From Tetracentron sinense (taxonomy: Eukaryota > Streptophyta > Magnoliopsida > Trochodendrales > Trochodendraceae), in contig JABCRI010001048.1 in NCBI GenBank assembly GCA_015143295.1, positions 124,001 through 188,000 on the forward strand: a stretch of 64,000 nucleotides of DNA, read 5' to 3'. Numbering within the stretch: the stretch's first letter is position 1; each line of letters opens with the position of its first letter. This document shows positions 17,116-58,685 of this stretch, piece by piece. The notes beneath the pieces were generated by a model, which was not told the origin of the DNA, did not search any database, and worked only from the letters and a program-made list of their open reading frames with translations. A program made the position numbers and the translations under genes.

Positions 17116-20100
17116 CTGCAATAATAATAAAATAAACATCAATGTTACTGGACAATGAGATAGAGGAAAGTTGAATATAGGACTGATGAATGATGATACA
17201 ACATTGAATATCTAAATTATCGACATTGTCTGTACTAGCAGCATTTAACGACAAAACAGCAGTTACCAATCTTAGTAGTAATAAAAATACAACTAATTTA
17301 TTTTCATGTTATGATCATACAGCAAAGTCATTCAGAAGAGATACAGATAATATAAGGTAGAAACCAGCAAGTCCTGATCCCAACTCTCTATCACCATTAG
17401 TGATTCTTTTCTTTCAATGATGTGGGATATAAATGGTAAAGTTCATTAGCTGCTGAGGCATCTACTTCTTGGTTAATTCTTCATGCCTTGTAATTTTCAC
17501 TCCAACCCAAAGTCATACTCAGCTATTCCACAAGTTCGGAAGGAGGAGAGTAAGGCCCCACCAATTCAAATATGGATCAAACTCATTGCTCTTCGAGGAA
17601 TTCATTCTCTCAGCATCTTCCATCACTCCATTCCTTCTACATCATCTCTTTTCGTCACTCAGTATCCCTCCAGCTTCCTTCATTGTAATTCATCACCTGC
17701 ATGTCTAGAACTGTTGTAAGTTCCAGCCTTCATGTCTTTCATAAACCCAAAAGTTTAGGTTGTGGATAAGTTGAATATTTATCTCAGTGTTCTCTGCTGT
17801 TGGTTCAAAGTGTAAAACAAAGCTTGAATAGGTCTAATCTAAATCGAACATCCTAGTGCTATTCACTTAACACCTATTTCTTCATATCATTTTATCTTCA
17901 CACCCCCTCTCAAACTAAATATGATGAGTCATCATTTAAAGTTTGAAACAAGAGCAGAGACCCAAACTTGCAAATAGCAATGATCGGCGTCGCAGGTGGA
18001 CTCCTCAGATAACAGATGCGGTGGTGGGCTTTTCGGATTTTGATGGTTTCAGACAAGAAATTGCAGATGATGGGTTTGAAAGTCCTCTAGCAACAGACAT
18101 ACAGGGCCTGTAAGCCTCAAATAATAGACAAGTGGGCCTAAACTTTCATCCCATAAAATAAAAAATGTGTCTCTGGACTCCCACACCCCATATAATCAAT
18201 TTGAGGACTCCATAACCCGGCAGATGTGTCTGAACTCCCACACCATAGATAATAGATGCATCTCAATTCCCAAGCCCTGATAAGTGATAATTGTTGATAT
18301 ATGTAATATCGAAGGTATGGTTGTAAAAATGGTATATATGTACTGTTCTCTTAATATAAGATGCTATTAGGCCTTTCTTTCCCTCACTAAGCAATTTACC
18401 TTAATCCCTATTATTTCCTCTTTTTCTCTTATTCTCTAAGAAACATAACTCTCTAACCCTAAATCTCCAACTTGGTATTAGAGCTTCATCAAAGGAAGAA
18501 GATAGCTATTTAAAGTTGTAAAACAACCAAAGAAAAAAGGAAACAGCTGGGACGTTTCAGCCATACGACTGTCTCTAGCCGTATGGCCTAGGCCTTGTTT
18601 TTGGGTTCTTCAAAGTTGCTCCTATGGATGCTAAAGCTCTTACTCAGCAGGCTCTTTCTACCTCCGTTGTTCACTCTATCATCAATATTAAATTCAATTG
18701 TGAAAATTTTCTTACGTAATGAAGCTCTGTTGAGTTTTATAATGGTGGTCGTTCTAAGATGGGTATCTATCTTGATGGTAAGACCTCTAAATCAGGTATT
18801 TCTGAGATTGCTACATGGAATGCCGAAAATTACATTATTTTGGGCTGGTTGTTTAATTTTATGGAGCCTCAGATTGCCAGGAAAAACATTTTCTATAAGG
18901 ATTGTCATGAGCTTTGAGATGCTCTTATTCAGACTTATACCTTAGTGGAGAATGATACTCAGATTTATCAACTTACTCGTGAGATTACTCATTTTTAGCA
19001 AGGGGATATGTCTATCTCTAATTATTTTGGGACTCTTCAGCGTGGTTGGGACGAATTAACCTATTATAAGTCTCTTTCTGAATTGTCTGTTGCTTTTGCA
19101 AAGGTTATGACGAAGTGAATAGAGTGTCATCGCATTTAAGATTTCTTGGGTGGCCTTCGTTCCGAATTTGAGAAGTTGCGCACTCAGCTCCTTGCCACGT
19201 CTCCTCTGCCCTCTCTTCGATCTGTGTATTCCACTGTGTTCAGTGAGGAACGCAGACGGGCTATTATGTCTTCGAGCTCCCCTCCTATGCTCCCTCTGAA
19301 TCGTACTGCCTTTACTACTGATTTTCGTGATCCTCCGAGACGTGGTAGGGGGACTGTAGGGGTCGTGGTGGATGTGGTCGTGATAGATTTACTACTCTTT
19401 ATGCTCACTGTAATATAATGAGACATGATCGTAATCATTGTTATCGTCTGCATGGCTATCCTGAGAATTATCAGTCTTGTCCTGCTGCTCATTTTGCTAT
19501 GACTCCTGTTATTGATTATTCGCTTGCAGCCTTAGTTGTTGCGAGTGATCCTTTGGAGTCCTTGAAAGCTCAGGTTGCTGAGATGATCCGCGTTGAGTTC
19601 CGTTCCGTCTGCAGAGTGATTCTGATACTACTGCTTCATCTTCACTTGCTGCCTCAGGTATCAATGCTCCATCTACCTATGTTGCCACTACATCGTCTTC
19701 TTCCCCTGGCTAGGTTATTGATTCTGGAGCCACTGATTATATGGCTAGGGCACCTGTATCTCCGTCTCTCTTTATCACATGTTTTACATGTTCCTTGTTT
19801 ATCTTTTAACCTTCTTTCAGTTAGTAATCTTACTACCAAACTTAATTATTGTGTTATGTTTTATCCTTCTCATTGTCTCTTTTAGGGCCCGACTACGAGG
19901 AGGATTGTTGGTAGAGGCAGACTGTACTACCTCGATACTGATTATGCTCCTGATCGTGTCCCCTCTACTGTTGCTACTGTTTTTATTTTACCCTTTTCTG
20001 ATGATGCTAGTCATGATACTTATCCCATGCTTGGGCTTGTTGAATCTAAGACTTTGTATTCTTTGATTTCGATTTTTAGTTAATTGTGTTCTTCATCTAC

Positions 20101-23100
20101 CTTTCAATATAATACTTGTGAGCTTACTAAACATGTTCGCACTATTTATTCTTCTTGCATGTATAGACGTCGTTCTACTTTTTAGCTTGTTCATTCTGAT
20201 GTCTGGGGTTTATCTCCGATTACCTCTAGTGATGGTTTTCATTATTTGGTTACTCTTTTATCGATGACTACACTCGGGTTTACCTTATTAAGTCTATGGA
20301 TGAGGTTTTTTCTAAATTCCACAAATTTCATGCTATGGTTGTTACCCAGTTTGGTGGTCTTGTTAAGGCCCTTCGATCTGATAATAGTAGTAAGTATCTC
20401 TCCACACATTTTGTCAAGTATCTTCACACTCATAGTATTGCTCATCAGTTTACTTGTCCGTACACACCTCAACAAAATGGTGTTACTGAGCGCAAGAATC
20501 GTTATTTATTGGGTGTCACTCACTCCTTGCTGCGAGGCATGCAAGTGCTTAAGCCTTTTTTATCCATGACCCTTCTCACAGCATATTTTCTCATCAATCG
20601 GGCACCTTCTCGTATTTTTTATGGTCTCTCACCATATTAGCTTCTTTGTCCTCAGACTACTATTTTTTCCATTGAGCCATATGTTTGTGATTGTACTTGC
20701 TTTGTCCATGATCTTTGGCCTAATCGTCTGAAATTGTACAATAAGTTTGATAGACATGTCTTTGTTGGTTATTCTAGGACATCAAAAGGCTATTGGTGTT
20801 ATGATCCACAGTCTCGTCGTTTCTTTGTTTCTCTGGATCATAGTGACAAAGTCGGGGTTCGGGAATAATTTGGCAGGTATCAAGTTCGGAAAAATTTAGG
20901 AAAAATTCGGGAAAAAATAAAAAGTAAATTAATAATTATAAAAATATACGGGAACAATTTGATTAAAATATATACAAAATAAGTAATTTTTTTTCATAAT
21001 TCTGGAATAATTCGGAAAAAATGCGAATAATTCGTTAAAACGGCATTTTTTTAAAAAAACGCGATTTGAACACCGAATACTTTGGCAACCCAAAAATTCA
21101 GGAATAAAACGTGAATTTTTGAAAAAAAACGCCGTTTTTTGTTACTTGACTCTGGATGTTACCTTTTTCGAGACAATACCATATTTCTCTCCTCCTACTA
21201 TGCCTATTATATCTTTGTCTTTACCTCGTAATATGCCTATTGTCTCTTTTCATTTACCTGTTTTAGGGGAACTTCCACAACAGAAGGAGTTTCTTGCATA
21301 CTCTCATTGACAGCCGTTTGGTTCCCTCTCCGATGCGCCTCTACCACAGTCTTCCTCGCAGGCCACTCCACCAGGTACTTCACCTTCTTTTATTCTTGTT
21401 TATACTTCTCTTATTATTACTCTTGTTGTTTCTGATCTTGAGTTGTCTATTACTCATAGCAAGGGTGTTCGCTCATGTGTTACTCCTTACCCTCTTACCA
21501 AGTATGTTTGTTATCAGGTTGTATCTCCCTCGTACCAAGCTTTCCTCTTCGCTATTGATATTGTGACTATTCCTCGGTCTGTTTGTGTTGCTCTTCTTCA
21601 TCCTGAGTGAAAGGTTGCTATGGTTGACGAGATGAATGCCCTTCAGTCTAATCATACTTGGGATATGGTTCCTCTTCCATGATCTTGGAAGAAACTTCTG
21701 GAATGTTGTTGGGTATTCACCGTCAAACATAACTCTGAGGGCAGTATTGCTCGGTATAAGACTCGTCTCGTTGCCCGCGGCTTTACTTAGACCTATCGCT
21801 TGACTACGATGCTACTTTTGCTCTTGTGGCCAAATTGACTTTCATTTATGTCCTCTCTCTTGCGGCGAATCGGAGTTGGCCTCTATATCAGTTGGACATC
21901 AAGAATGTATTTCTTAATGGGCATCTCACCAAGGAAGTATATATGGACCCCCCCCCCCCAACTTCATGGTTTCCTGCTTCAGGAGGAGTCTAGGAAGATT
22001 TGTAGACTTCGGAAGTCTAAATATGGTTTGAAGCAGTCACCTTGAGCTTTGTTCCATCACTTTAGTAATGTGATTCTAAGCAATGTTACAAATCACATTC
22101 TCGGGTTTTTATCGGCCGGAGTTTTTCTCGGGAGATTTTCAAATCTAAATTTTTTTTGGGTATTTATCGCCTAAATCTTGGGAATGTTTAAAAAATATAT
22201 TAAATTTACAAAAAATAGTAATAAATATCACCAAGTTATAAATTCAAAAAATCAACAACATTGTGTATTTCTCATGATATTTTTAAAATCTCAACTAAAT
22301 CTCGTGATATATATGGGATAAAAAGAGAATTATATTTCTCGCGAAAATTTTAAAATATCGCAATAAAAACGAAGTTTTAAACTTTAGATGTTTTTCTCGG
22401 TTTTTCGAGAGAGAAATTGGGTACTTCTCGGGAGATTTGTAACAGTGGTTCTAAGTATGGGCTTCAGTGATGTCACTCTAATCCTATCTTCATCCACTCT
22501 GGCACCTCATGGCGCACTATACTTCTGGTATATGTTGATGATATTATTTTAACTCGTGATGACTCATCTTTATCTCTCGTGCTAAGAGTAAGCTGGTGCG
22601 TACATTTGATGTCAACAACCTAGGTCATCTGAAGTACTTTCTTGGTCTAGAGATTGCTCAACCTAAGAAGAGAATTTTTCTCTCAGAGCGGAAATATGCT
22701 TTTAATCTGCTGAGTGATACTAGTATGTGGGTGTAAACCCGCTACTTCTCCCAGGGATCCAAAGCTCTCTTTACATGATAGTGAGGATGATCTTCTTCCT
22801 AATCCTCATGCCTACCAGTGTCTCGCTGGTCGCTTGATATATCTCACCCTCACTCGAACGAATATTACGTTTATTGTCAGTATGATTAGTCAGTTCATGC
22901 ATGTTTCTTGTGTTTTACACCTTATTGTAGTTCATCGTATTCTCTAATATATCAAGTCTAAACTCAGTTGTGGACTTGTATATCGCACACATGGGCATCT
23001 TAAGATCTCTGACTATACAGATGTCGATTGAGCTGGATCTGCTACTTATCGTCGCTCAACCCCTGGCTATTGTGCTTTTCTTGGGTACAACTTACTTACG

Positions 23101-26100
23101 TGGAAGAGTAAAAGCAACCCGTTGTTTCTCGCTCCAGTACTGAGTTTCTCGCTCTAGTACTGAAGCAAAATATCGAGCTCTTACTCATGGCACTCTTATG
23201 AAGTTCTGTGGCTCCGTTCTCTCCTTTCCAAATTAGGGTTCCTATTAAAGACCCTATGTCTTTATATTGTGATAATGAGGTCGCCGCGAAGATTGCCTCC
23301 AATTATGTGTTTCATAAGAGGACAAAGCACATTGAAGTTAATATTCATTTTATCCGAGAGAAAGTTTGGGATTGTTCATTATCTTTTCAGCATGTTTCGT
23401 CTTCTCATCAACTTACTGACATTTTCACCAACCCTGTTGGCACTTCTATCCTCCAATATATTAGTGTCAAGCTGGACATGCTTAATGGTTATGCTCCAGT
23501 TTGAGGGGGAGTGTTGATATATGTAATATCGAGGGTATAATTGTAAAAATGCCATATATGTAATGTTCTCTTAATATAAAATGCTAGTAGGGTTTTCTTT
23601 CCCTCACTATGCATTTTACCATAATCTCTATTTTTTCCTTTCTTTATCCTCTTCTTTAAGAAACCTAACTCTCTAACCCTAAATCTTCAAACCCAATCTC
23701 CAACTATAACAGATGGGCATAAACTCCCTTGTCCCAAACAATAAATGGCTTGGACTCCCTCGCCCCAGATCAATGTTTTAAATGCGGAGACATGAGGTGA
23801 GGCATTAAGACCTCATCGACATTTAAGTCTCAGTTATATACCTTGAACCCTAATTTTAGTTAATGTATGAGGCACACACAACAGGCATAAAGCGAGCCTC
23901 AAGGCGTGTGCCTCATGTGAGGCTCACAATTTAAGGTGCGAGTCTCATGAGATTTAAACCTTAGGGTAGAGCCTCAAGGTGTAAGCCTCACACCCCTTTT
24001 AAAACACTGTTCCAAATAAAATCCCAACAAAGAACCAACTCATGTAAGAACATCCAAGCTAACAAAAAAAAATAAGGAAAGCCCATTTTGAGGCGTAACT
24101 TATTTGACTGGGAGGTTCCATACCTTTTGAGGCCGCTCTCCCTAATTCAGCAATTTTCCCCTACCTCTCTCAGACGGGATAGTTGAATTTGGTCCCTAAA
24201 CAACAAGAGACAGTTCTTAGTGAGATCTTTCTTGCACCTTACAATCTGAGCCCTTATTACCTTTTCCTCACCAAACTGTATGGTTCCCTTGGTTCCCTCT
24301 AAGGTATCATTTTTCTTATAAACAACAGTTTTAGATAAAATCCTAACTTACGATCACCTTATGTTGTTTTGCATTATGTGGCTTCTAGCCATAGTTAGTA
24401 ATTCGGCGTATGGCAAACAATTGGTACGGGGTATGATTCGTGAATAATTCAAAATAATCCTTTAATAATTCGTTAAAAAATTCAGCATAAAAAAAAAGCA
24501 AGACATTAAAAGTGAGGTTCTGAAATAGTTTGAGTATAATTCGGTCCAAGATTCAAAAATCCGTTCAAAAAATCGGCTTAAAATATAAAACAATATATAA
24601 AGTTACCTTTTATCTTAGACTTTTATGTAAACAAATAGATAAAGATAAGAATAGATAGTGATAAGTGATCCGTATATAAATTTTTTAAAAAAATCAAATT
24701 TATTGATAAATAAATAAATAAATAAAATTAAAATTTTTAAAATAAAAATATATATAATTCACATTTATCCAATGACATAATTTTAAATCTCAAAAAATAA
24801 TGCACATTTATCCAATATATATAAAATAGGCCTTTAATTTATATATATATATATATATTTTTAAGTATAAATTTTTAGTCCATAATCCATATGGTGTCTA
24901 TTGGGGTGTCCGGTTTTTTTTTTTGGGGTGGTGGATATATTATCATGTAACTAACACACACCCTAAACTCGCACAAACACTCTAAAGGGTGTCCCTTTTT
25001 CACTTCCTTTAACTTTGATTAAGATTCACAAACCCTTGGGTTTAAAACATCTTACCTTGATTTGTTTTTTTAAATTAACTAGAAAAGTTAAAACTTTTAA
25101 CTGTAGTTCAAAGGGGGTTTTTGAGGGCGAGGAGGATGGAACTCGCTCACATTCTTGTTTTATTGTCTTACAAGTTTTTTTTTTTTTTTTGAAGTAGAAC
25201 AAGCTTAAAGATTTGAGAGTTGAGATTCTCTCCTGGACATAACATTAATACTCTCAAGAAATCAAAATATGCATCTCAAACCTGCAGAACACAAAACACT
25301 GTGTTGGGCAGATGGGCACAACTACACAGCATACTGCTTGAATTGAATAAACACGTATTCCACTTTTTTCTTCATAGCCAGGCTTGAATTGAATAATATA
25401 TGAAGTTGAGAGATGAATACATCCATGTTTGAATCCAACAAGAATATCAAGTCTGAGAGAGGAATCAGGAAAAGAAAAAAAGATCCAAGAGAAAGGGAGA
25501 GAAACAAAGCAGGAGGGAGAGAGAGAGAGAGATCCAGAATCTGGAGAGACGGTGGTGGCTGGTGACCGACTGATTCAATCGCCTAAGATGTCCGTCTGAC
25601 AGAGTGAGCGAGGGAGAGAAAGGGAGAGACTGAGAAACACAGTGAGAGAGACCTCCGGCAGCCCAGCTGTGGGCGGCAGTGATCCGGGCCATCCGGCAAT
25701 ATAATCAGTCATCACTTAGGAAGATCTGGGAGAGAGGCCACACTGTATAAGTATCAGAGAGACAAGAGAGAAAGTAAAGGTGGTTTCACCTTTTTCGTTG
25801 GGAACTCAACTAATAATATTAAATGTTTCCTCTTACTATTCGCATATCCATCACCAAATAATTTGGATGATTTGAAAACGCCGCGTACAATTCCAAATCA
25901 TTGAATCGGATGATCGATCCAAACGTATAAAGAACAACACGTTCTATTCGTGAATAATTCGTGAACTGATCGCGAATTTACTAACTATGCTTCTAGCAGA
26001 GGAGATTGTGGATCACTTATTACTACATTGCCCGATGACAAGAAAGGTCTTATTTCCTATCTCTCCTCTGCATCCCATGGATCTTTCCCATATCATTCCG

Positions 26101-32691: not shown

Positions 32692-33749
32692 TCAATCTCT
32701 ACTCAGATTCAGAATTTCTTTTATTACAAGGCTTCTAGCCCGATTGATGGTCATGAAACACAAGTACAGGTGCTCCTCTAATTCATCTAACTGCTCTCTA
32801 AAGCTGGAGTCGTTCTTCTTCAGCTGGCGTGCCACTTCTCCGGTCGCATTCAGCCGGTCCTCTCGCCGATCTAACCAAAACCGAACCATGGCACGCATAT
32901 GCTCCAGCTCATCTTGTAGCCGATTCACCAGCCGGCTTAAAGTATCCAAGTCCTTATTCAATATATAAGTCCCTTTAGCTGCTGCATCAAGCTGAGCCGA
33001 CATCCTAGCCAACCTCCTCGTTGAAACCAGCTGAAATGAAGCCGTCATGAAACCCGGCCCAGCTACCAGCAACGCCAATCCGTGTGTCACCACAATTACA
33101 ACCAGTGAAGCCGTTAACGCCACAATAAATATAGCCAACCCACGTTTCATGCCGTTAAGGATCCGGAGCTTTGAGCGAGCCTTCTCGCGGCTTGCCTCAA
33201 GCCGTTCGAGCAAGCCGGTGCAGCGAGCTTGCACTTCTCGGAACCGACGTGGAGATGAAGCTGACGAGCCAAATGGATTAAAGAAGTTGGAGAATTTGGT
33301 AAGGCGGTTGAAAAAACCCGGAAAGTGGTTCCCCGGCGAGAGTAAGGTGGTTTCGATGGAGTTGATGGTGGTTTTGAGAGGGCGGTATTGGACACGAGTT
33401 TTATCGATGTCTTTTAACAAGAGACCGCATAGGATAGAAGCGTCAGCAGTTTTGGAGAAGTAGTCGGAGAGGAGACGGTGGTTTTCAGAGAGGTTTCTAG
33501 ACTGAGAGAAAGCCAGGATTTTGGTGACCGTTGGTTGGTCCGGATCCAAGAGCTGCTCGGCGAAAAGTCGGTATGACGAGAGTCTCACAGCTGTGGTGGA
33601 TTCTGCGGGTAAACACGTGGCAGCATCTCCGTGGGTCAAGGCGAGAACCCTTGTCCAAAAATCGACGTAGGATTCTGTACGGAAGGCGTTGGCGTATTCT
33701 TCGCGGATATCGATTTCGTTGGGGCTGTTGGGATTGTCTGGTCCAGACA
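32692..33749 (-). CDS. UPF0496 (DUF677) family protein, first exon not found
   Basis: About 351 residues read from the minus strand to the stop near 32692. The N-terminal IDIREEYANAFRTESYVDFW block and the helical body match the UPF0496/At3g49070 group. Two adjacent hydrophobic helices at about 205-233 (GLAIFIVALTASLVVIVVTH) could form a membrane hairpin. The C-terminal third is coiled-coil-like (LSRLVNRLQDELEHMRAMV). The frame opens at a GTG that overlaps a splice-acceptor-like GGTGCAG (AG at 33751-33750), with an in-frame TGA a few codons upstream and no early in-frame ATG. A small upstream start exon is therefore needed; a second possible acceptor is CCAACAG about 25 bp inside. The molecular function is unknown. 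Confidence 0.82.
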
Positions 33750-34039
33750 CTGCACCATGTCAAACAATGTTTGTTGTGAGTTTATAGTTTATATTCACGA
33801 GACTAGGAGAGAATAAACATTTTTTTAACACAAAAAAAAAACCAATTTGATTTTGTGTTACCGCTTGCGTTAAGGGGATTCTTAGGGGGTGTGTGTATAA
33901 GGCCATTTTGGAGTGGTTGCTTGACTTATCCTCATGGCCCCTTAGCGGCCATCTTAGGTATGGATGTGTGTTTACAGAGTATATATTAGTTACATGATAT
34001 TATTTCAACCAAAAACATCAAAACCACATCCAATCGTGA

Positions 34040-37884: not shown

Positions 37885-38310
37885 CACACTCACAAGTCAA
37901 CACGTATACATTTTAACTCATCTTAATTGTGGTTAAGATTTACTAACTCTTATGATTTAACAATCTAACCATAGTTTTTAGAAAAAAAATATTTAAAAAA
38001 AGTAACCCAATGATTAAAAAATTTAAACCCTACGATTATTTTTAAAAACAATAATTTAAAAACCAAGATTTGATTGTTGAACCCTAAGGGTTAATAAATC
38101 TTAACCACAATTAATAAAGGTTAAAGGGGACACGTTAACCTAAGCTTATTTTTTATAAAAAAAAATAGTTTCTAAAAATCAATATTAGATTATTGAACCC
38201 TAAGGGTCAATAAATCTTAACTACGGTTAATAAGAATTAAAATAGGCATGTGTTGACATGAGGGTGCGATTGAATGTGAGTGCAATTGAACTCAAGTTCA
38301 ATCACGATTG
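37885..38310. mobile_element. Two adjoining fold-back units, GGTTAAGATTCACT family
   Basis: The core occurs forward (TTGTGGTTAAGATTTACTAAC at about 37925, key part GGTTAAGATTTACTAAC) and inverted (AATCTTAACCACAATTAATA at about 38096, and AATCTTAACTACGGTTAATA at about 38212). Outer 'GTCAACACG' and 'GTGTTGACATG' words pair. Noncoding. Confidence 0.6.
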
Positions 38311-40049: not shown

Positions 40050-41660
40050 ACAGGATTAACCCAGATCACCATTGAAAATTTTTAAATACTCTGCTAGTAA
40101 TCAAATTCAGTGTTAGCAAAATTATTTTTTTTGTTACTGATATCAGATGCAATCATACTATAATTCTGAGTCGACTAGTCACAGATCATCATTCATCTTT
40201 CCTAGTTGTTCAAAAGAATGTAGTGGAACAAATGCTTATGGTCATCAAATCATATAGGATTTCAGTATGGAAGATCTCCTGCAAAGAACCCCACTAACCA
40301 GCTCCATTGCCCCTAGACTTAAACATGTGAATAAGCAGAGCTGGAATTTTACATTGTGTCGTAGTATGATACCTCGAATTGACCTATCAACCGTTCACTC
40401 AGACGGGTTTGGGTAATTTAATCATCAAGACCCACCAAAGAGATCTTCTAGACGAAAAAAATCAACACACATTCAAATGATATAAATGTTTAATGTCCAA
40501 TATTCTGGAATAACAGTATCCTAAAGTGTGAACTACAAATCTGGTAAAGTAATATGCAGAACCGAGTACAGAAATTCCAAGGCTGAGATATTTAGATTAT
40601 TCGTAAAATTCTGGACAGAGGATTAACCCAGATCACCATTGAAAATTTTTTAATACTCTGCTAGTAATCAAATTCAGTGTTAGCAAAGTTTCTTTTTTTT
40701 TGTTACTGATATCATATGCAATCATACTATAATTCTGAGTTGACTACTTACAGATCATCATTCATCTTTCCTAGTTGGTCAAAAGAATGCAGTGGAACGG
40801 GTGCTTATGGTCATCATATCAGATAGGATTTCAGTATGGAAGATCTCCTGCAAAGAACCCACTAACCAGGTCCCTTGCACCTAGACTTAAACATATGAAT
40901 AAGCAGAGCTGGAATTTTACATTGTGTCGTAGTATGATACCTCGAATGGGCCCATCAACCGTTCACTAAGACAGGTTTGGGTAATTTAATCATCAAGACC
41001 CACCAAAGATATCTCCTAGCCAAAACAAATCAGCGCACATTCAAATGATATAAATGTTATATGTCTAATATTCTGGAATAACAGTATCCTAAAGTATGAA
41101 CTACAAATCCGGTAAGTAATATGCCCTTAAATTCTATTCCGCCCCCTCAAGTATCTTTCTCTGGTGCAAAGGGGTGTTAAGGCGTGAGGACTCCAGGGTA
41201 CAACAGCAGATTTCTCCGGCGATCGTGCACACACAAACTAGAGGCACACTGAACTCATCTAAGAAGGCAGCCCAAAATCATAAAACCAGAGATGATATTC
41301 AAGGAAGAAGAGGCAGTGTTTTCTTTCTGTTGTAAAACCAGTTCCTACAGAGTCCTTAAATGGACATCCAGCAGAAGAGAAAGAGTCCCCATAAGATAGC
41401 GTAACAGAAGGAGAAAAGAGCACTACACCCGTTCGTACTGCGCTAATCACGATCTGAAATCGTGAACACGATTAATTGAATTGGTCAAAGATATATAAAA
41501 AAAGGATGAAAAAGGACATTGAGATATCCAACTGACTAAATAGTCGATGTGGGACTACCAACCGTTCACTCAGACAGATTTGGGTAATTTAGTCATCAAG
41601 ACCCACCAAAGAGATCTCCTAGTTGGAAAAAAATCAGTGCATATTCAAATGATATAAACC
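40050..41660. repeat. Large direct duplication, ~570 bp period, plus a third partial copy
   Basis: Copy 1 starts at about 40050 and copy 2 at about 40621, both with GATTAACCCAGATCACCATT. They stay collinear through 'CAACCGTTCACT' and 'GACCCACCAAAGA' to about 40550 and 41118. A third fragment at about 41549-41660 repeats only the CAACCGTTCACTCAGACAG block and what follows. Copies differ by roughly 5-8%. No ORF spans them, and their nature is unknown. Confidence 0.85.
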
Positions 41661-42172: not shown

Positions 42173-42352
42173 CTATAACTCATCTTTTAGATGTTCATGC
42201 TCCTCAAGGGGATTAGAGTCATCGGCTTTACTTTTCTTGCTGTGGAGCATTTCAACTACTTCCTCCAAAGGAGGATCTCCAGGCCTTCGATAAACTTGAT
42301 CGCCTATCTTGATCTCATATGCCTCCGGATGGTTCAGTACAAAGTCTTTCAA
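42173..42352 (-). CDS. Last exon of the MESD-like gene (KDEL exon)
   Basis: The acceptor TTTGTTAG precedes TTG AAA GAC. The 59 residues end EEHEHLKDEL followed by TAG at 42175-42173. It joins in phase 0 to GQDIAE of exon 2, reconstituting the conserved QDIAELKDFVL junction. Confidence 0.85.
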   Translation of the reverse strand: MKDFVLNHPEAYEIKIGDQVYRRPGDPPLEEVVEMLHSKKSKADDSNPLEEHEHLKDEL

Positions 42353-45300
42353 CTAACAAAAAGAGAAGAGAAAAGGAAAGGAAATTACATGAGAATGCAG
42401 GGATCTCCAACACATGTTTTCCCAAAGGGAAACTTGATATTTTAACAGATTACCCATCAACCAAAACTCAAAATCATGCCAGGAAAACATTTGATAGACC
42501 CGATGTTAGGGTTTTTCTTATTAAATAAAAACCCATGTGGTCTGGCGCAATCCTTAGTTTTCAAAACTCGGATTATATTGCTGTCAATAGAGAATGTTAA
42601 GGATAATAGGTCCCACTAAAGAGATGTGATCAAACAGGGACTATTTAAGTGTTATTAAAGCTAACAACATGGTCAGGGTTGGCGACCGTTAGATCTTTGG
42701 TGTGATCCCTCTTAACCTTTGGATCTTATGATGGGTAGGGTTCCAAGGGTATATAAAGCAAAGAGGGGGTCCCTCTATTCTCTTACGTCAATTGGAAGCC
42801 CCATTGAATCAGACCTAAGGAGAAAAGAGAAGACCCTCTCATCCCTCTCAAGCGCCGAGAAACACAACATCACACCTTGAAGGGAATAGGGAAATTCCAA
42901 CGAAAGGTATGAGATTATCTCTTTCAATCCTTGTTTGCCTTTGATTATGAATTCTAGAAAAGTTGATTGCATGGTCTAGATCCAGGATTTGAATAATCTT
43001 GTTTTGTTTTAACATTATTATTCTTGAATCCCAACAATTGGTATCAGAGCACAGGGTTGACCTTGTGATTAATTTTTCTTAATAATCAAATTTAAGTGGG
43101 GTTTTATTTTCGGATCTAAATAATCCATTTTTTTTATTGATCTTGTGATTCGGATTTAAGGAAATTGAGAAATAGAAATTTAAAGGTAAATAAGATAAAG
43201 AGATTGATTTCGTTTTTTTTTTTGATAATTAATTTTAATTGGTTTTGAAATAAATTTTTGGATTTTTAATAACGTATCTAGGATCCGAGTGAATCGGAGT
43301 AAAGGTTAACAGTAAAGAAATTTTCAGAAATTAAAAAAAAAAAAAAAAAAAAGGGTTTTTTGGCTGTTTTTGGTTGGACGGCGATTCCGCCGCCGTCCGT
43401 CACCGGAGAACGCTGCCGGCGGTGAGGTTTTGGTCGCCTGAGGGTGGCCGTCGGTTTGGCACCGGCGGCAGCCGGAGAGGTGGCCGGTAGAGCCCCCATA
43501 AGAAGGGTTAACAGTATACTGTTTAGGGTTTGGAAATAAAAAATAAAAAATAAAAAAATTTAATATGTTCGGGTGAAGGAGACAAGGTCACGAGGGTCAA
43601 CCTGACCCTCTGACCCGAGTCCATTAGATCAACCCGATCCAATATATAACCCGAACCGGGTAGATCTGAACGGATCCGGAAAAAACCCGACCATAAACCC
43701 GAATACAGCTTGACCCGAACCATATAGTAGCCGAACCGAATGGGTCATAACCCGACCCGAATTAACAGAACCCGGTTCTATGGGCCGTACCGGTTCAACC
43801 GGATCAAATACTGAACCAGACCGATGGCTGAACCAACCGGACCGAACCAAGGCCCAGACCGGACCGCGTGACAGCGTCGAACCGCGCGCGCGTGACTCGC
43901 AGAACGGGCGTGAGCCATTTCCGTGCGCGTGAGGCGCACCACCGCGCGTGGATCACAGTTTCCGTGCGTGACGCGCACTACCTGCGCGTGACACTTGCAG
44001 GGAGTGTCCCCTGTGCGTGACACGTCCCCAAGACATTTCTTGAGAGAGTGTCCGACCTATCCTGAGGTTTTTGGGTGTTCTGATTCCGTTTTTGGGGTCC
44101 ATTTTGACTTCTGAGCACTGTAAATAGCTGTTTTAATACATGAATATGATTTTCCTATGGTTTTGACATTAAATAAAGGAAAAACTTGATGCTTTTACCC
44201 AAAATTAATATTAAGAATTAAAGTTAGATCATCCTATGGGGTTTAGGTTTGATCTGTAAGGCGTTCGTTCGAATGGTCATAACCAAAGCAGGTTAGATTG
44301 TCTTGCCTAAAGGTGACCGTCCTATGGAGGTTATGATTTTTCGAATTTAGGGATTTCAATCTCTTTAAGATCGCGAGTTTGCACTCACCTACATTGAATA
44401 ACTAGTCTTGCCCAAAGGTGTCTAGGGACTTCTTGTAGACTGAGTGGGGCAGAATGATTTGTGCGTAGCGGTGAGAGAAGGATAACCCTCTTGCCCAAAG
44501 GTGTGGAAGTGTCCTAATCAATCCAATACGTGATAGATCAGTTTTGTGCGCGACTATTGTTGCCAATTGGGGGGTGAATTGCATGTCGAAATCTCTTGCC
44601 CAAAGGTGTGATTAGATGATGCGCCCACCTGTCCCGTAAAGTGGAAGTAAGCAATCTTAAAGTAAACCACTTTAGCTATCCGGCTTAACCCCAAGACCGG
44701 ATTAGAAATATAAAGCTTAAATAAAGTCATGCAAGGACAAGTATAAAGTAAATTATTATAATTTGTGCAATAATTTGTTAGACATACCATAACATAGTAA
44801 AACATTGACATTTTCAGATATGGATGGGTCTGTTGTTCAGAAACATTTGACTGGGATTGAACCTCTGAATGGTTCAAACTATAGTTCTTGGAAGATGCAG
44901 CTAGATACAGTTCTGGGTTGCCTTGATTACGACTTTGTCCTACTGGAGGAAAAGCCGGTTACTCCTACTGCTGAGTCTTCAGATTCAGATAAGTCTTTGT
45001 ATTCGAAATGGGAGAAGGCCAATAGGATAGCCATGATGATCATTAGGGCTTCTGTTCAAGAAGCCATCAGAGGTGGTATTCCTGCTGCTGATACAGCTAA
45101 GGTTCTTCTTGAGACTATCAAGAAACAATTTATGGGATCTGTTAGGTCTCGTCAGTACAGTTGTTTGACTCAGCTGATTTCATTGAAGTATGATGGTGCT
45201 GGAAATGTTCGGGAGCACATCTTGAAGATATCTAAGTTAATAATCTCTCTTAGAGAGCTTGGGTTGACAATTGAGGATGACCTCATGGTGCATTTGGCTG

Positions 45301-48300
45301 TAGCCTCACTTCCTGAATCATTTGATGCTTTTAAGGTTAATTACAGTGCACAGGATAGGAAGTGGGATCTGCATGAACTGATAGCTGTGTGTGTTAGTGA
45401 GGAAGAGCGCTTGAAGCGTGGGAAAGCTGAGTATGCGAACTTGGCTGTGAATTCTGGTAGTAAGAAGAATTTTAAGAATAAAGGGTTCAAGAAATCTAAT
45501 TCAAAAAATTTCAGGCAAGGACAAAATTCAAGACAGAGTTCAGGTCATAATTTAGGACAGAGTTCGGGACATCAATTTCAGGGAAATGATAATACTGAGG
45601 AACTAGAGGAGATTGAGTGTTTCTTCTGCAAGGGGAAAGGTCACATGAAAAGAAACTGTTTCAAATATAAGGATTGGTGCAAGAAGAACAAAGGAGTTCA
45701 TTCATCGGCGAAGCGCCAAGGCTGATGAGCTGCTGATTTTTGAAGAACTCTACACCAACAGTATTAGAGGCTGTTGGAACTTGCTGATTAGTATTAGACT
45801 TTGTTTCTGGTTTTTACTATTAGATGTTATTTTCATTGTGCCGTTGTTTAGGCGAGATATTATAGGATTGGATACAGTTTAATTTTATCATTGAGGGGAG
45901 TACACTCTCCATCAGACATATTTTTCAAACAGTTGGTAGTAATATATTAGTGGATGATCTTTATTAGCTGACTTTAGACTTATATTTTATATCATTCTTG
46001 TTTTGTATGTTTGTTAATATCAGACATATGTTAAGGTCAGTGGGAGCAGGTTTGTAAGTTATAATTTGGATATCAAGATTACCAGAGATCATATTTCTAG
46101 ACGTTTGGAGTTATCTCATAGGATTTCAGTTTGGTTTACAAGAAATATATCGAACTAGAAATTTAAAAGTTATTCAGACTCTGATTTTGCTTGATTTCAA
46201 GATAATTTGAAATCCTCATCAGATTCTGTGTTGTTGCATGTTTGGATTGTGAACCCATTAAGTAAAGAACTCTCCACCAGAAATTTTTTAAAGAACTTGT
46301 CACTATTATGGAACCTTTTAGAATCGTTTGATTCTTTTATTTAGTGGGAGTATTGTTCATTGATTTATATTTCAGACATTTATATGATATACATGTCATT
46401 GTTTTACACTCTCAGATATTGATATGTTATGGTTATGCAAATTAAATAATTGATGCATCATTTGATTATGTTATGTTTTGACTGCACGTGCAAAAGGTAA
46501 AGACATCAAGTGATGGACTTCACATGACGGATGTCATTGATGTCAGGTTTGCCCGAGAGCCTCGCACAAAGCTCTCAAGTTGCTTGGGCTGAACATGGTT
46601 GGGCACCATGTTTGAGGCCTTCATTCTGGATACAAGGTGATGTTTGCCGTAAAGTATCGGAATGACATGCATATGCTTAAATGCATGTAGCGTGGACAAT
46701 TTTTGGACGTATACATTTTGATCACATAAGGTTGTGTATAGTCCATATCACACCATACCTTGCCACCATAAAGAACCGCTCTGAAACATTAGTATTACTA
46801 GCTGTTTGACCATGGAGTGGCTTGTATCATAGTAAATGAACACTAGTAGATGCTAAATGCTTCCATGATCACCGTTAGTGGTGCTTTTGAATCAAAGTGA
46901 CAGTTAAAGAACACTTAATTCTTGACAGCAATGTTTTTCAAAATTAAAAGAGTGGTCACTCATGTTTTTAAGGTTGTTCAATCCGAAAAGTCATTTTATT
47001 TTATTTAAGGATTTTTTCGACCAAGTGGGAGATTGTTAGGGTTTTTCTTATTAAATAAAAACCCATGTGGTCTGGCGCAATCCTTAGTTTTCAAAACTCG
47101 GATTATATTGCTGTCAATAGAGAATGTTAAGGATAATGGGTCCCACTAAAGAGATGTGATCAAACAGGGACTATTTAAGTGTTATTAAAGCTAACAACAT
47201 GGTCAGGGTTGGCGACCGTTAGATCTTTGGTGTGATCCCTCTTAACCTTTGGATCTTATGATGGGTAGGGTTCCAAGGGTATATAAAGCAAAGAGGGGGT
47301 CCCTCTTTTCTCTTACGTCAATTGGAAGCCCCATTGAATCAGACCTAAGGAGAAAAGAGAAGACCCTCTCATCCCTCTCAAGCGCCGAGAAACACAACAT
47401 CACACCTTGAAGGGAATAGGGAAATTCCAGCGAAAGGTATGAGATTATCTCTTTCAATCCTTGTTTGCCTTTGATTATGAATTCTAGAAAAGTTGATTGC
47501 ATGGTCTAGATCCAGGATTTGAATAATCTTGTTTTGTTTTAACATTATTATTCTTGAATCCCAACACCCGAAACCCGGATGAACCTTTAACAGAGAAACA
47601 TCTCCTTTCAGCTCATCAATCTTAAAATTTAGATTAGTGGGCCATCTCTTGAGTGACGCATAGTGCAAAAAAACTTAAATTCTTAACTGATCAGAAAATC
47701 TTAACCTTTTGATATATAGCTATAAAGCATACCTCTGCTATGTCCTGCCCCTTCTCCATGGTGAACATGATTGTGTTCAAATCGACACCCATGAACTTAG
47801 CCTCAATGGATCCGGTTCTAAGAACCTTTGTCCACTTCATAGCAATCTCAGCCACCATCTCCTGGAAAATTTGTAAGTGCAAAGTCATGATAATCTTCAT
47901 GAGATCTCCTTTTCCCCACAAATTAGCGAATAATTAATAATACCCATCAAATGCTTTACTACAAAGGATTCTCTATAACCATGGCCAAATGATAAAGAAC
48001 TCTAAACAATAATAATAATAATAAGATAATTCTTCTCTCTCTCTCTCTCTCTCCATATTTCTTCAAATTTTCTAAGCAGATTAGTGAGACCATCCTTTTT
48101 AAGCAAGCCAGCAATAATATGAAATTATGAACATCAGATAGAGAAAAAAACTAAAACTAAGAACAAAAGATGCAATCTAGATTCATGTTAAATATTTCCA
48201 AACAAAAAAAAAAAATTCGTTTTTTTTGGGGGCGAATACCCAATTCATATCTGGGACTCCCAACCCATCATACCCACGATTTCCATGAAAAAAAAGGGGG

Positions 48301-48650
48301 AAAGATTTGGGTACCGCAGAACGACGAACGCCTAATTGAAGCTTAACGAAACCAAATGACGGCCCGAAATGTCGCTTCATCATTTCGGCCTGAATCTCAG
48401 GCAGCTCCATCCTGGAAAAATCCACAGGTGGGGGATCGAAATCTTTTGATGGGGTCGATTTTTTGCCCCATTCCTTCCAGGAATCATCTTCCTCATCGTC
48501 TACCACGTCTTCTAACTCATCTGGGATATGAATTCTTCCCTTTCCTCCCTCTGTAACTCTAACAATTCCACCATTTTCGGTAAAAAATAAGATGAGAAGA
48601 ACAATTAAACATACCAGGGATGAAGAAGAGCTGCTCCGTTTGCTCATCAT
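42173..48650 (-). CDS. MESD-like ER chaperone (mesoderm development candidate 2 family) ending in KDEL
   Basis: Three exons on the minus strand: 48650-48315 (112 codons), 47861-47733 (43 codons) and 42352-42173 (59 codons plus stop), all phase 0, giving 214 residues. A signal peptide is visible (SLVCLIVLLILFF). It is followed by GRIHIPDELEDVVDDEEDDS and WKEWGKK, then FDPPPVDFSRMELPEIQAEM, MMKRHFGPSFGFVKL and GVRR. Exon 2 gives EMVAEIAMKWTKVLRTGSIE and ends GQDIAE. Exon 3 gives LKDFVLNHPEAYEIKIGDQV, RRPGDPPLEEVVE and a C-terminal HLKDEL. Animal MESD is an ER chaperone that folds LRP-type receptors; the plant client is not known. Signal peptide plus KDEL predicts a soluble ER-lumen protein. The last intron holds an intact LTR retrotransposon in antisense orientation. 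Confidence 0.88.
42504..43036 (+). repeat. 5' LTR of the gag-only element
   Basis: It carries a TATA box TATATAAA at 42750-42757, which would set the U3/R boundary near 42785. Differs from the 3' LTR at three positions (the AATAGG, CTCTATTC and TTCCAACG sites). Confidence 0.9.
42750..42757 (+). promoter_or_regulatory. TATA box in the 5' LTR
   Basis: TATATAAA, preserved in the 3' LTR at 47280-47287. It is the expected promoter for the gag transcript. Confidence 0.6.
43039..43050 (+). promoter_or_regulatory. Primer-binding site of the gag-only element
   Basis: TGGTATCAGAGC, complementary to the 3' end of plant initiator-Met tRNA, two bases after the 5' LTR. Confidence 0.85.
44293..44620 (+). 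repeat. Four spaced copies of CTTGCCCAAAGGTG in the retrotransposon leader
   Basis: CTTGCC(C/T)AAAGGTG occurs at about 44302, 44407, 44490 and 44596, with spacings of roughly 80-110 bp, all in the same orientation and upstream of gag. The intervening sequence is not repeated, which argues against simple tandem duplication. Confidence 0.7.
44805..45725 (+). CDS. gag: Retrotransposon Gag polyprotein (UBN2/gag-polypeptide type, CCHC)
   Basis: 306 residues, uninterrupted. A second ATG at 44820 (MDGSVVQ) is the likelier start, judging by the LTGIEPLNGSNYSSWKMQL block typical of Copia Gag N-termini. The body contains SLYSKWEKANRIAMMIIRAS, then LLETIKKQFMG and a LTQLISLKYDG stretch. A basic Gln/Asn/Ser-rich linker leads to a CCHC knuckle near residue 272 (CFFCKGKGHMKRNC). 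It would form the virus-like particle that packages the element's RNA. The frame stops with TGA after RQG; no pol frame follows in any phase, so it is not a simple frameshifted gag-pol. Confidence 0.93.
   Translation: MTFSDMDGSVVQKHLTGIEPLNGSNYSSWKMQLDTVLGCLDYDFVLLEEKPVTPTAESSDSDKSLYSKWEKANRIAMMIIRASVQEAIRGGIPAADTAKVLLETIKKQFMGSVRSRQYSCLTQLISLKYDGAGNVREHILKISKLIISLRELGLTIEDDLMVHLAVASLPESFDAFKVNYSAQDRKWDLHELIAVCVSEEERLKRGKAEYANLAVNSGSKKNFKNKGFKKSNSKNFRQGQNSRQSSGHNLGQSSGHQFQGNDNTEELEEIECFFCKGKGHMKRNCFKYKDWCKKNKGVHSSAKRQG
45726..47033 (+). other. Noncoding 3' internal region of the gag-only element
   Basis: Every frame is closed by stops and no Copia enzyme motif is seen. The region ends in a polypurine tract next to the 3' LTR. 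The segment 46480-46930 reads like degenerate unique sequence of unknown origin. Confidence 0.7.
47034..47566 (+). repeat. 3' LTR of the gag-only element
   Basis: 533 bp, 530 identical to the 5' LTR. Followed by the target duplication CCCGA. Confidence 0.9.
47733..47861 (-). CDS. Exon 2 of the MESD-like gene
   Basis: The acceptor TTTTCCAG precedes GAG ATG GTG and the donor is GCAGAG|GTATGC. The 43 codons include MKWTKVLRTGSIEAKFMGVD and FTMEKGQ, the most conserved core of the family. Confidence 0.87.
48315..48650 (-). CDS. Exon 1 of the MESD-like gene
   Basis: 112 codons, from ATG ATG AGC to TCT GCG|GTACCC. It encodes the signal peptide, the acidic linker and the FGPSFGFVKLQLGVRR block. Confidence 0.87.
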
Positions 48651-57792: not shown

Positions 57793-58599
57793 CTAGAAGT
57801 CATCACCCCCAAAACCACCATCATCATCATCGTACCCTATATCATCCTCAACTTTCTCCGCCACGTCATCAGCGATCTTGTCCTCCACGTAATCAGCACC
57901 CTCCGCCAATGCTACCCCACCCAAAACCCCTGCAACCGCACCCACAGCCAAACCGGTCCCCATCCCGTACTTACTCTTCTTCTCATGATCCCCACCGTAC
58001 GTTTCATGCCCGTACGCCGGCTGCCCATAGAGAGCCTGTGTCCCATACTGCGGCGGATTGAATTGGTACCCAACCGGTGGCGGAGCAGCGTATGGGTACC
58101 CATACGGAGTAGGCGCATGGTAGTCCCTTGACGGTGGTGGGACTCCATAAGGGGAAGCGTAGTACGGGTCCGGTGCACGATAGCGAGGGTCACGAACCGT
58201 AATTTTGGCTTCAATTTTCCCTTGTGGTCGACCTGATGGGCGTTTGAGCTGCAAAGTACGGAAGGCTTTCTCTCCGATGCCGACGTCATCGAGGATCTCC
58301 CTGAGTGGGACACGGGCCGACCCGATTAAGGGCTTGGTGTCCTCTTTGGCGTTGGCATGGACGATGTCGATCGACAAGGTAGAATCCTCGATCGGACACG
58401 GTATCGGAACGGCAAGTGTCTCGTCCCAGACAGGAGAAGTGTCGCCATCCTCATCAACATTGGTGGAGTGTTTGGCATTAGGATCAACCCAAACGACGGC
58501 GTAGGGTTTGAGATTGCCGTGTCGCCAGTTCACGTTTTTGAGGTCTTTTGCCGAGGAGATTGTGACCTCTACTTCAAGAGGAACTGGATGAGACGCCAT
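57793..58599 (-). CDS. SRC2-like: SRC2-like C2-domain protein
   Basis: 268 residues, intronless. The N-terminal C2 domain is at about 8-115 ([58 protein letters not shown]). It is followed by a Pro/Tyr/Gly-rich stretch ([20 protein letters not shown]). A Gly/Ala-rich hydrophobic segment near 215-235 ([20 protein letters not shown]) and an acidic tail ([20 protein letters not shown]) complete the SRC2 layout. Family members respond to cold and other stress, bind membranes through C2, and SRC2 in Arabidopsis has been linked to ER-to-vacuole transport and NADPH-oxidase activation. This copy is somewhat shorter than Arabidopsis SRC2. The ATG is supported by the conserved start of the C2 domain immediately after it and by a TATA box about 90 bp upstream. 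Confidence 0.9.
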
Positions 58600-58685
58600 T
58601 AGAGGGGCAAAGATGAAATTTCCTTGAAAATGAATGACCGTCGAGGACTGAGAATGTTTGTTACTTATTTTGTGGCCTTGTTGGG

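Follow-up and report, generated by a model that had tools for sequence, protein, structure and literature searches.

TR-GAG elements, terminal-repeat retrotransposons that encode only Gag, were reportedly described by Chaparro et al. in 2015 and are cited in later papers. We analysed a 64,000-nucleotide stretch of the Tetracentron sinense genome (assembly GCA_015143295.1, contig JABCRI010001048.1, positions 124,001 to 188,000 of the forward strand; hereafter the window, in whose coordinates all positions are given) and found that 42504-47566 is occupied by a long terminal repeat (LTR) retrotransposon of this type. We consider it likely that this is a non-autonomous Copia element of a recently active family, which would have originated from a spliced RNA and would take its enzymes from an autonomous relative. 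The Arabidopsis TR-GAG AT5TE33540/ATCOPIA63, which transposes in ddm1, likewise has two LTRs, a single Gag open reading frame (ORF), no coding pol and an autonomous relative in its genome (PMC8704663). Unlike it, the family described here has hundreds of copies and pol fossils, seems to have lost an intron precisely where gag meets protease, and shows signs of a further intron in the leader; the words splice, intron and shGAG do not occur in that text. Transcribed TR-GAG elements are also described in a sunflower study (PMC9784723).

Other Copia elements make Gag alone by splicing. BARE1 has a 104-nt intron at the end of gag, with a stop three residues past Gag, and resembles the present case in its GT-AG intron just past gag, frame shift and early stop, at 104 versus 107 nt; BARE1, however, splices at the RNA level, whereas here the spliced form appears to be fixed in the DNA (PMC3735527). 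The short Gag mRNA of EVD, shGAG, also arises by splicing and early termination, a Ty1/Copia strategy, but in an autonomous element and at the RNA level only (PMC8892269). BARE2, like our family, is non-autonomous with a partner, BARE1, yet it is unable to make Gag, while the present family makes Gag alone (PMC3735527). GAG-RNA loci of triticale are non-autonomous Copia elements with two LTRs and Gag ORFs, as here, and most of their transcripts have one intron; the portion of that text examined mentions neither a partner nor an origin by intron loss (PMC7765848). Short Gag isoforms are described in sunflower and triticale (PMC7730604, PMC7765848), and a review names EVD, BARE1 and Ogre for Gag-only splicing (PMC12786077). 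In the literature searched, whose partial coverage makes this weak evidence of absence, we found no account of how TR-GAG elements originate or one that joins them with Gag-RNA splicing; a literature search for a leader intron in an LTR retrotransposon returned no paper.

The element lies on the plus strand, as do all its features below. Comparison of the LTRs placed the 5′ LTR (TG..CA) at 42504-43036 and the 3′ LTR at 47034-47566, both 533 bp long, differing at three sites (K = 0.0056) and flanked by a perfect CCCGA target-site duplication (42499-42503 and 47567-47571). U3 contains a TATA box, TATATAAA (42750-42757). Directly 3′ of the 5′ LTR stands ATTGGTATCAGAGC; the primer binding site TGGTATCAGAGC (43039-43050) is presumably of the initiator Met tRNA type. 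The polypurine tract AAGTGGGAGAT (47023-47033) directly precedes the 3′ LTR. The gag ORF (44820-45725; 301 aa) is of Copia type and matches Pfam Retrotran_gag_2 (PF14223, E 4.5e-21); its CCHC zinc knuckle is present but scores below the Pfam threshold (E 0.0018, 18.7 bits against a cut-off of 20.8). The LTR pair, the 5-bp duplication, the primer site, the polypurine tract and the Copia-type Gag identify the element as a Copia LTR retrotransposon. A sequence-only reading of the window had listed these cis parts, TATA box and complete knuckle-bearing gag included, and each was borne out. It had also put the insertion at a few hundred thousand years; a recent insertion is supported, and the figure itself is K/(2 × rate) with a rate that is not established for this plant.

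To place the element in its genome we searched 1.16 Gb in 1479 contigs. First-look candidates numbered 1021 for the LTR query (40 scored), 573 for the tail query (40 scored) and 7646 for the gag query (131 scored). All 131 scored gag matches had at least 95% amino-acid identity, 83 without and 48 with a stop. A 22-base pattern across the gag-end junction, allowing two mismatches, occurred at 329 places, the first 100 of which were listed, and its reversed control at none. Twenty further copies, drawn without exception from the scored gag matches, were read from end to end, and every one had the order LTR, leader, gag, tail, LTR. The window element and 19 of these copies were dissected further, L045 being dropped for a partial LTR after its 3′ LTR. 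Matching 5-bp duplications flanked 18 of the 20, the exceptions being L041 and L058, in each of which one LTR end aligned incompletely. The two LTRs of a copy differed by 0 to 6 substitutions, with none in five of the 19 other copies, one of which had a 1-base gap. This is a large, recently active, multicopy gag-only family with a shared layout, and with intact LTRs and Gag as its sole coding domain it belongs where the sequence-only reading had put it, in the TR-GAG class. A second copy on the window's own contig is represented by a tail (96%) and gag end at G000:C278:73369-74785. Searching viral contigs and plasmids with gag returned no relative.

We next looked for a pol-bearing relative. 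A zinc-knuckle pattern excluding the window's variant hit 61 places, many plainly of the gag-only family, and eight less similar loci (L067-L074) were read. Three are older gag-only copies (L071, L073, L074) and L072 is a still older one; a protease region survives in L067 and L070, part of L069 is deleted, and L068 belongs to another lineage. We take the protease region to be such from its DSG motif; in Pfam it matches Pol_BBD (2.8e-12). With this region as query, the best 150 of 7071 candidates were scored, and 24 of these 150 had open frames of 1387-1391 aa. Since 20 rows scored equally, the family appears young and homogeneous. It is a Copia family of about 7.4 kb with at least 24 copies bearing frames of 1387-1391 codons. 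We read it in pieces: gag and the start of protease from copy C22 (L075), and from copy C20 the 5′ LTR with primer site (L076), the 3′ end (L077) and the end of the pol frame (L078). In L075, gag and the protease region share one frame, and the Gag is 78% identical to that of the window element over 298 aa. By coordinates, the L078 stop falls in the frame of the C20 protease match and lies 1391 codons from a point that, as in L075, precedes the gag ATG by six codons. The C20 LTRs start 6903 bases apart and are near identical to each other. This family has the primer site and polypurine tract of the window element. The LTR regions of the two families are homologous, with 59% identity (318/537); when they were aligned again, 316 positions matched, whereas 20 shuffled sequences reached at most 249. 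The ends of the 3′ untranslated region (UTR) are homologous too, and share 77% identity over their last 98 aligned bases (75 matches, compared with at most 55 in 50 shuffled sequences).

This pol-bearing relative is, from its sequence, the likely partner of the gag-only family, and the long open frame would encode its reverse transcriptase and integrase. The earlier idea that the element must borrow pol is supported, and it gains a candidate donor with the same primer site. Eight of the 150 listed PF07727 Copia loci (L059-L066) were rejected as partners, their Gag identity being just 17-27% and the L059 match not significant (E 0.09). A PF13976 profile search, for which 150 of 12,064 candidates were listed, plays no role in our conclusions.

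The element itself retains traces of pol. A protease-region relic, now non-coding (45694-46018), shares 65% identity with L067 (E 1.6e-33 with the element as the only target). A relic of the pol C-terminal end (46245-46354), finishing at the partner's stop position, is 72% identical to L078 (E 1.5e-14, again with the element as the only target), and its 110 matching positions exceed the shuffle maximum of 93; these two relics stand in the order expected for Copia. Between them, a possible reverse-transcriptase relic (46056-46236) was recognized by eye through L072. We assume the labels reverse transcriptase-like and RNase H-like from motifs, and the C-terminal relic is presumably RNase H; neither the pieces of L072 and the window nor L078 gave such a Pfam match. 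These fossils indicate that the family descends from a gag-pol element. A profile search of ten reading frames of the tail, out of 24 listed with 30 aa or more, found no pol domain. The statement that no pol is present at all thus holds for coding capacity but not for fossils, which persist in a state too diverged for Pfam.

How pol was lost is suggested by the gag/protease border. Three loci with a protease region (L067, L070, L075) carry, after the knuckle region, a 107-nt stretch AAAG/GTATT...CTTCAG/GGG (the slash marks the border), which in L067 and L075 encodes, in frame, the beginning of protease. The stretch is missing from the window element, joined at 45693/45694, and from L071, L072, L073 and L074. 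Its T content is 42-45%, compared with 15-30% in the flanks (L067, L070). After the window junction ten codons, the joined codon included, precede a stop; in the partner's putatively spliced frame there are four by eye. When 15 gag sequences were placed in an unrooted tree, a branch with 100% support divided the 11 intronless ones from L069 and the three loci that bear the intron, as a single loss would give. With 329 junction matches, a conserved gag of its own and this split, the family does not look like a deletion of one autonomous element. L072 lacks the stretch but seems by eye to keep reverse transcriptase-like and RNase H-like remnants; splice loss may therefore have preceded the main deletion of pol. 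BARE1-like Gag-only splice sites are thus present in the partner, the splice itself being putative, and the gag-only lineage looks like a retrocopied spliced Gag RNA of an autonomous relative.

A second intron is indicated in the leader. It would run from a donor in U5 to an acceptor just before the gag ATG (42907-44817, GT..AG) and would contain the primer site together with a hypervariable and a less variable block. The putative leader exon 1 (42781-42906, its start set at TATA+31) is ATG-free and ends at the donor AAAG/GTATGAGA. None of the 20 copies departs from this donor or from the acceptor TTTTCAG/AT, and exon 1 is ATG-free in all of them; 14-27 ATGs lie between donor and acceptor. The partner retains both sites, as AAAG/GTAGG in U5 and TTTGCAG/CT. 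T content is 28.9% in the leader and 16.5% in exon 1.

We propose that an autonomous ancestor produced a spliced RNA for Gag alone, lacking the 107-nt GT-AG intron, and that this RNA was reverse-transcribed and integrated. The frameshift left by intron loss would stop the protein just past Gag, and the untranslated pol would then decay and be deleted. In the present cycle, transcription would start in the LTR, and removal of the leader intron would yield the messenger for Gag. RNA that escapes this splicing, and keeps primer site and leader, would be packaged by the element's own Gag, and protease, reverse transcriptase, RNase H and integrase would come from co-assembling Gag-Pol of the autonomous relative. 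The only sign of mobility in trans is indirect, namely the five copies without LTR substitutions. We lean slightly towards a more general view, in which gag-only elements are born as genomic copies of translation-only spliced Gag RNA of Copia elements. With the splice fixed in DNA, all transcripts would yield only Gag and pol would decay; the self-packaging parasite would come to outnumber its donor, and the leader intron would hold packaging signals back from the RNA that is translated. By two different patterns, the gag-only family does outnumber the enzyme donor (329 junction matches versus 74 genome places for the acceptor).

Several observations count against this proposal. Both splices are putative, being read from sequence alone. 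At the border, the ends of the 107-nt stretch slide by a base or two, with one placement exactly GT-AG, and this may leave room for a chance deletion; in L069 the donor is present and the acceptor side gone. The stretch could then have been lost by a plain deletion in DNA, or through a jump of the reverse transcriptase between templates, its GT and AG ends being coincidental and the family still gag-only. The ambiguous ends fit such an event, and other deletions are clear, for example those in pol of the window element and of L067 and the lost acceptor side of L069. Nevertheless, the one GT-AG placement has a good donor, AAAG/GTATT, and a pyrimidine-rich acceptor in three loci, and its position, T-richness and early stop match BARE1 (PMC3735527); we regard a deletion or jump as unlikely.

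For the leader, the T content is no higher than that of gag (29.2%), and in the partner an ATG stands close to the putative start, so that the case for this intron comes from its sites and ATG counts. Gag could instead be translated from the unspliced leader, by internal entry or by shunting, as pararetroviruses do, with donor and acceptor unused. The T content and the purely sequence-derived nature of leader splicing agree with such translation. The invariance of both sites, the ATG-free exon 1, the many ATGs between the sites and the conservation of both sites in the diverged partner make it doubtful. As for supply in trans by the proposed partner, the relative is known from pieces of two copies, its pol end (L078) has no Pfam match, and with an LTR identity of only about 59% the use of its integrase is putative.

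The proposal also has the element depend on its own Gag, and gag is, judging by substitution patterns, under purifying selection. Across 30 gag copies pN/pS was 0.15, a value lowered, as is pN, by the choice of copies on protein score. Variants shared by at least two copies comprised 31 synonymous, 19 nonsynonymous and 2 stop changes, and singletons 26, 33 and 3, respectively, the latter being less favourable to selection; the neutral expectation of the synonymous fraction is 0.21-0.30, depending on transition rate. Between window and partner gag, a comparison free of protein-score choice, dN/dS was 0.11. Against L067, L072 and L073 it was 0.15, 0.22 and 0.21, and the 0.36 against L074 is again less favourable; L072 versus L075 was discarded with L072 out of frame. 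Seven of the 30 copies contain a premature stop. Stops recur at codon 234 (L013, L019, L037) and codon 103 (L027, L036), either by common descent or by repeated change. That the copies are passive deletion derivatives riding on the autonomous family's Gag, their own gag dispensable, is very unlikely: stops in 48 of 131 scored copies and in seven of 30, recurrent in three and two copies at the two codons, would fit it, but the pN/pS and dN/dS values and a gag divergence (0.019) half that of the adjacent dead pol relic (0.038) do not.

Divergence varies along the element. Across the 20 copies it averaged 0.015 in the 3′ UTR (46345-47033, conserved), 0.032 in the last 680 leader bases (the less variable block, 44137-44819) and 0.19 in the hypervariable block (43237-44036), which with its counterparts in L039-L058 is far more variable than the dead pol sequence. 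This block occurs as discrete haplotypes: 15 of 19 copies are about 75-81% identical to the window, L054 88%, and three 98-99%. Distances among copies correlate only weakly from block to block (r -0.09 to 0.45), and together with the haplotypes this suggests sequence exchange among family copies. The less variable block contains TTGCC(C/T)AAAGGTG at 44303, 44408, 44491 and 44596; the motif occurs four times at near-fixed spacing in 18 of the 20 copies and three times in the other two. Within the noncoding 3′ UTR, 46537-46936 has a divergence near 0.01, below that of gag. Rfam gave no match at E up to 1, this segment included, and folding gave no clear structure (z -1.76 for part of the conserved tail, -1.44 for the leader block).

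The putative splice scar of one clade, beside intron-bearing long-frame relatives, offers a testable route from an autonomous Copia element to a Gag-only parasite. Because Gag and enzyme supply would stand on separate elements, the natural pair also makes packaging, co-assembly and cis signals, such as the leader motifs and the 3′ UTR, comparable by sequence.

The element is inserted antisense in a MESD-like gene on the minus strand, within its second coding intron, which is also its last (42353-47732). For this gene we set exon 1 at 48315-48650, exon 2 at 47733-47861 and the last coding exon at 42173-42352. The protein joined from the three exons scores 28.6 bits against Pfam Mesd, above the cut-off of 24.4 (E 1.5e-6), confirming the previously proposed location, while the single exon pieces had no Pfam match when searched apart. 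With the element and one duplication taken out, the intron would measure 312 bp, and its GT and AG borders are intact.

Elsewhere in the window, 18292-23690 holds a degenerate Copia-like insertion with 179-nt direct repeats (18292-18470 and 23512-23690, 87% similar) and, at 20233-20637, part of an integrase (PF00665, E 7.8e-8). A 98-nt repeat occurs in 11 copies across 724-55702, in both orientations and with an inverted fold-back pair at 37902-38135; we would guess at a dispersed family resembling miniature inverted-repeat transposable elements (MITE-like). Two head-to-tail copies about 568 bp apart and 92-95% alike lie at 40052-41115. Genes for a DUF677 protein (32695-33759) and a C2-domain protein (57796-58653) lie on the minus strand.

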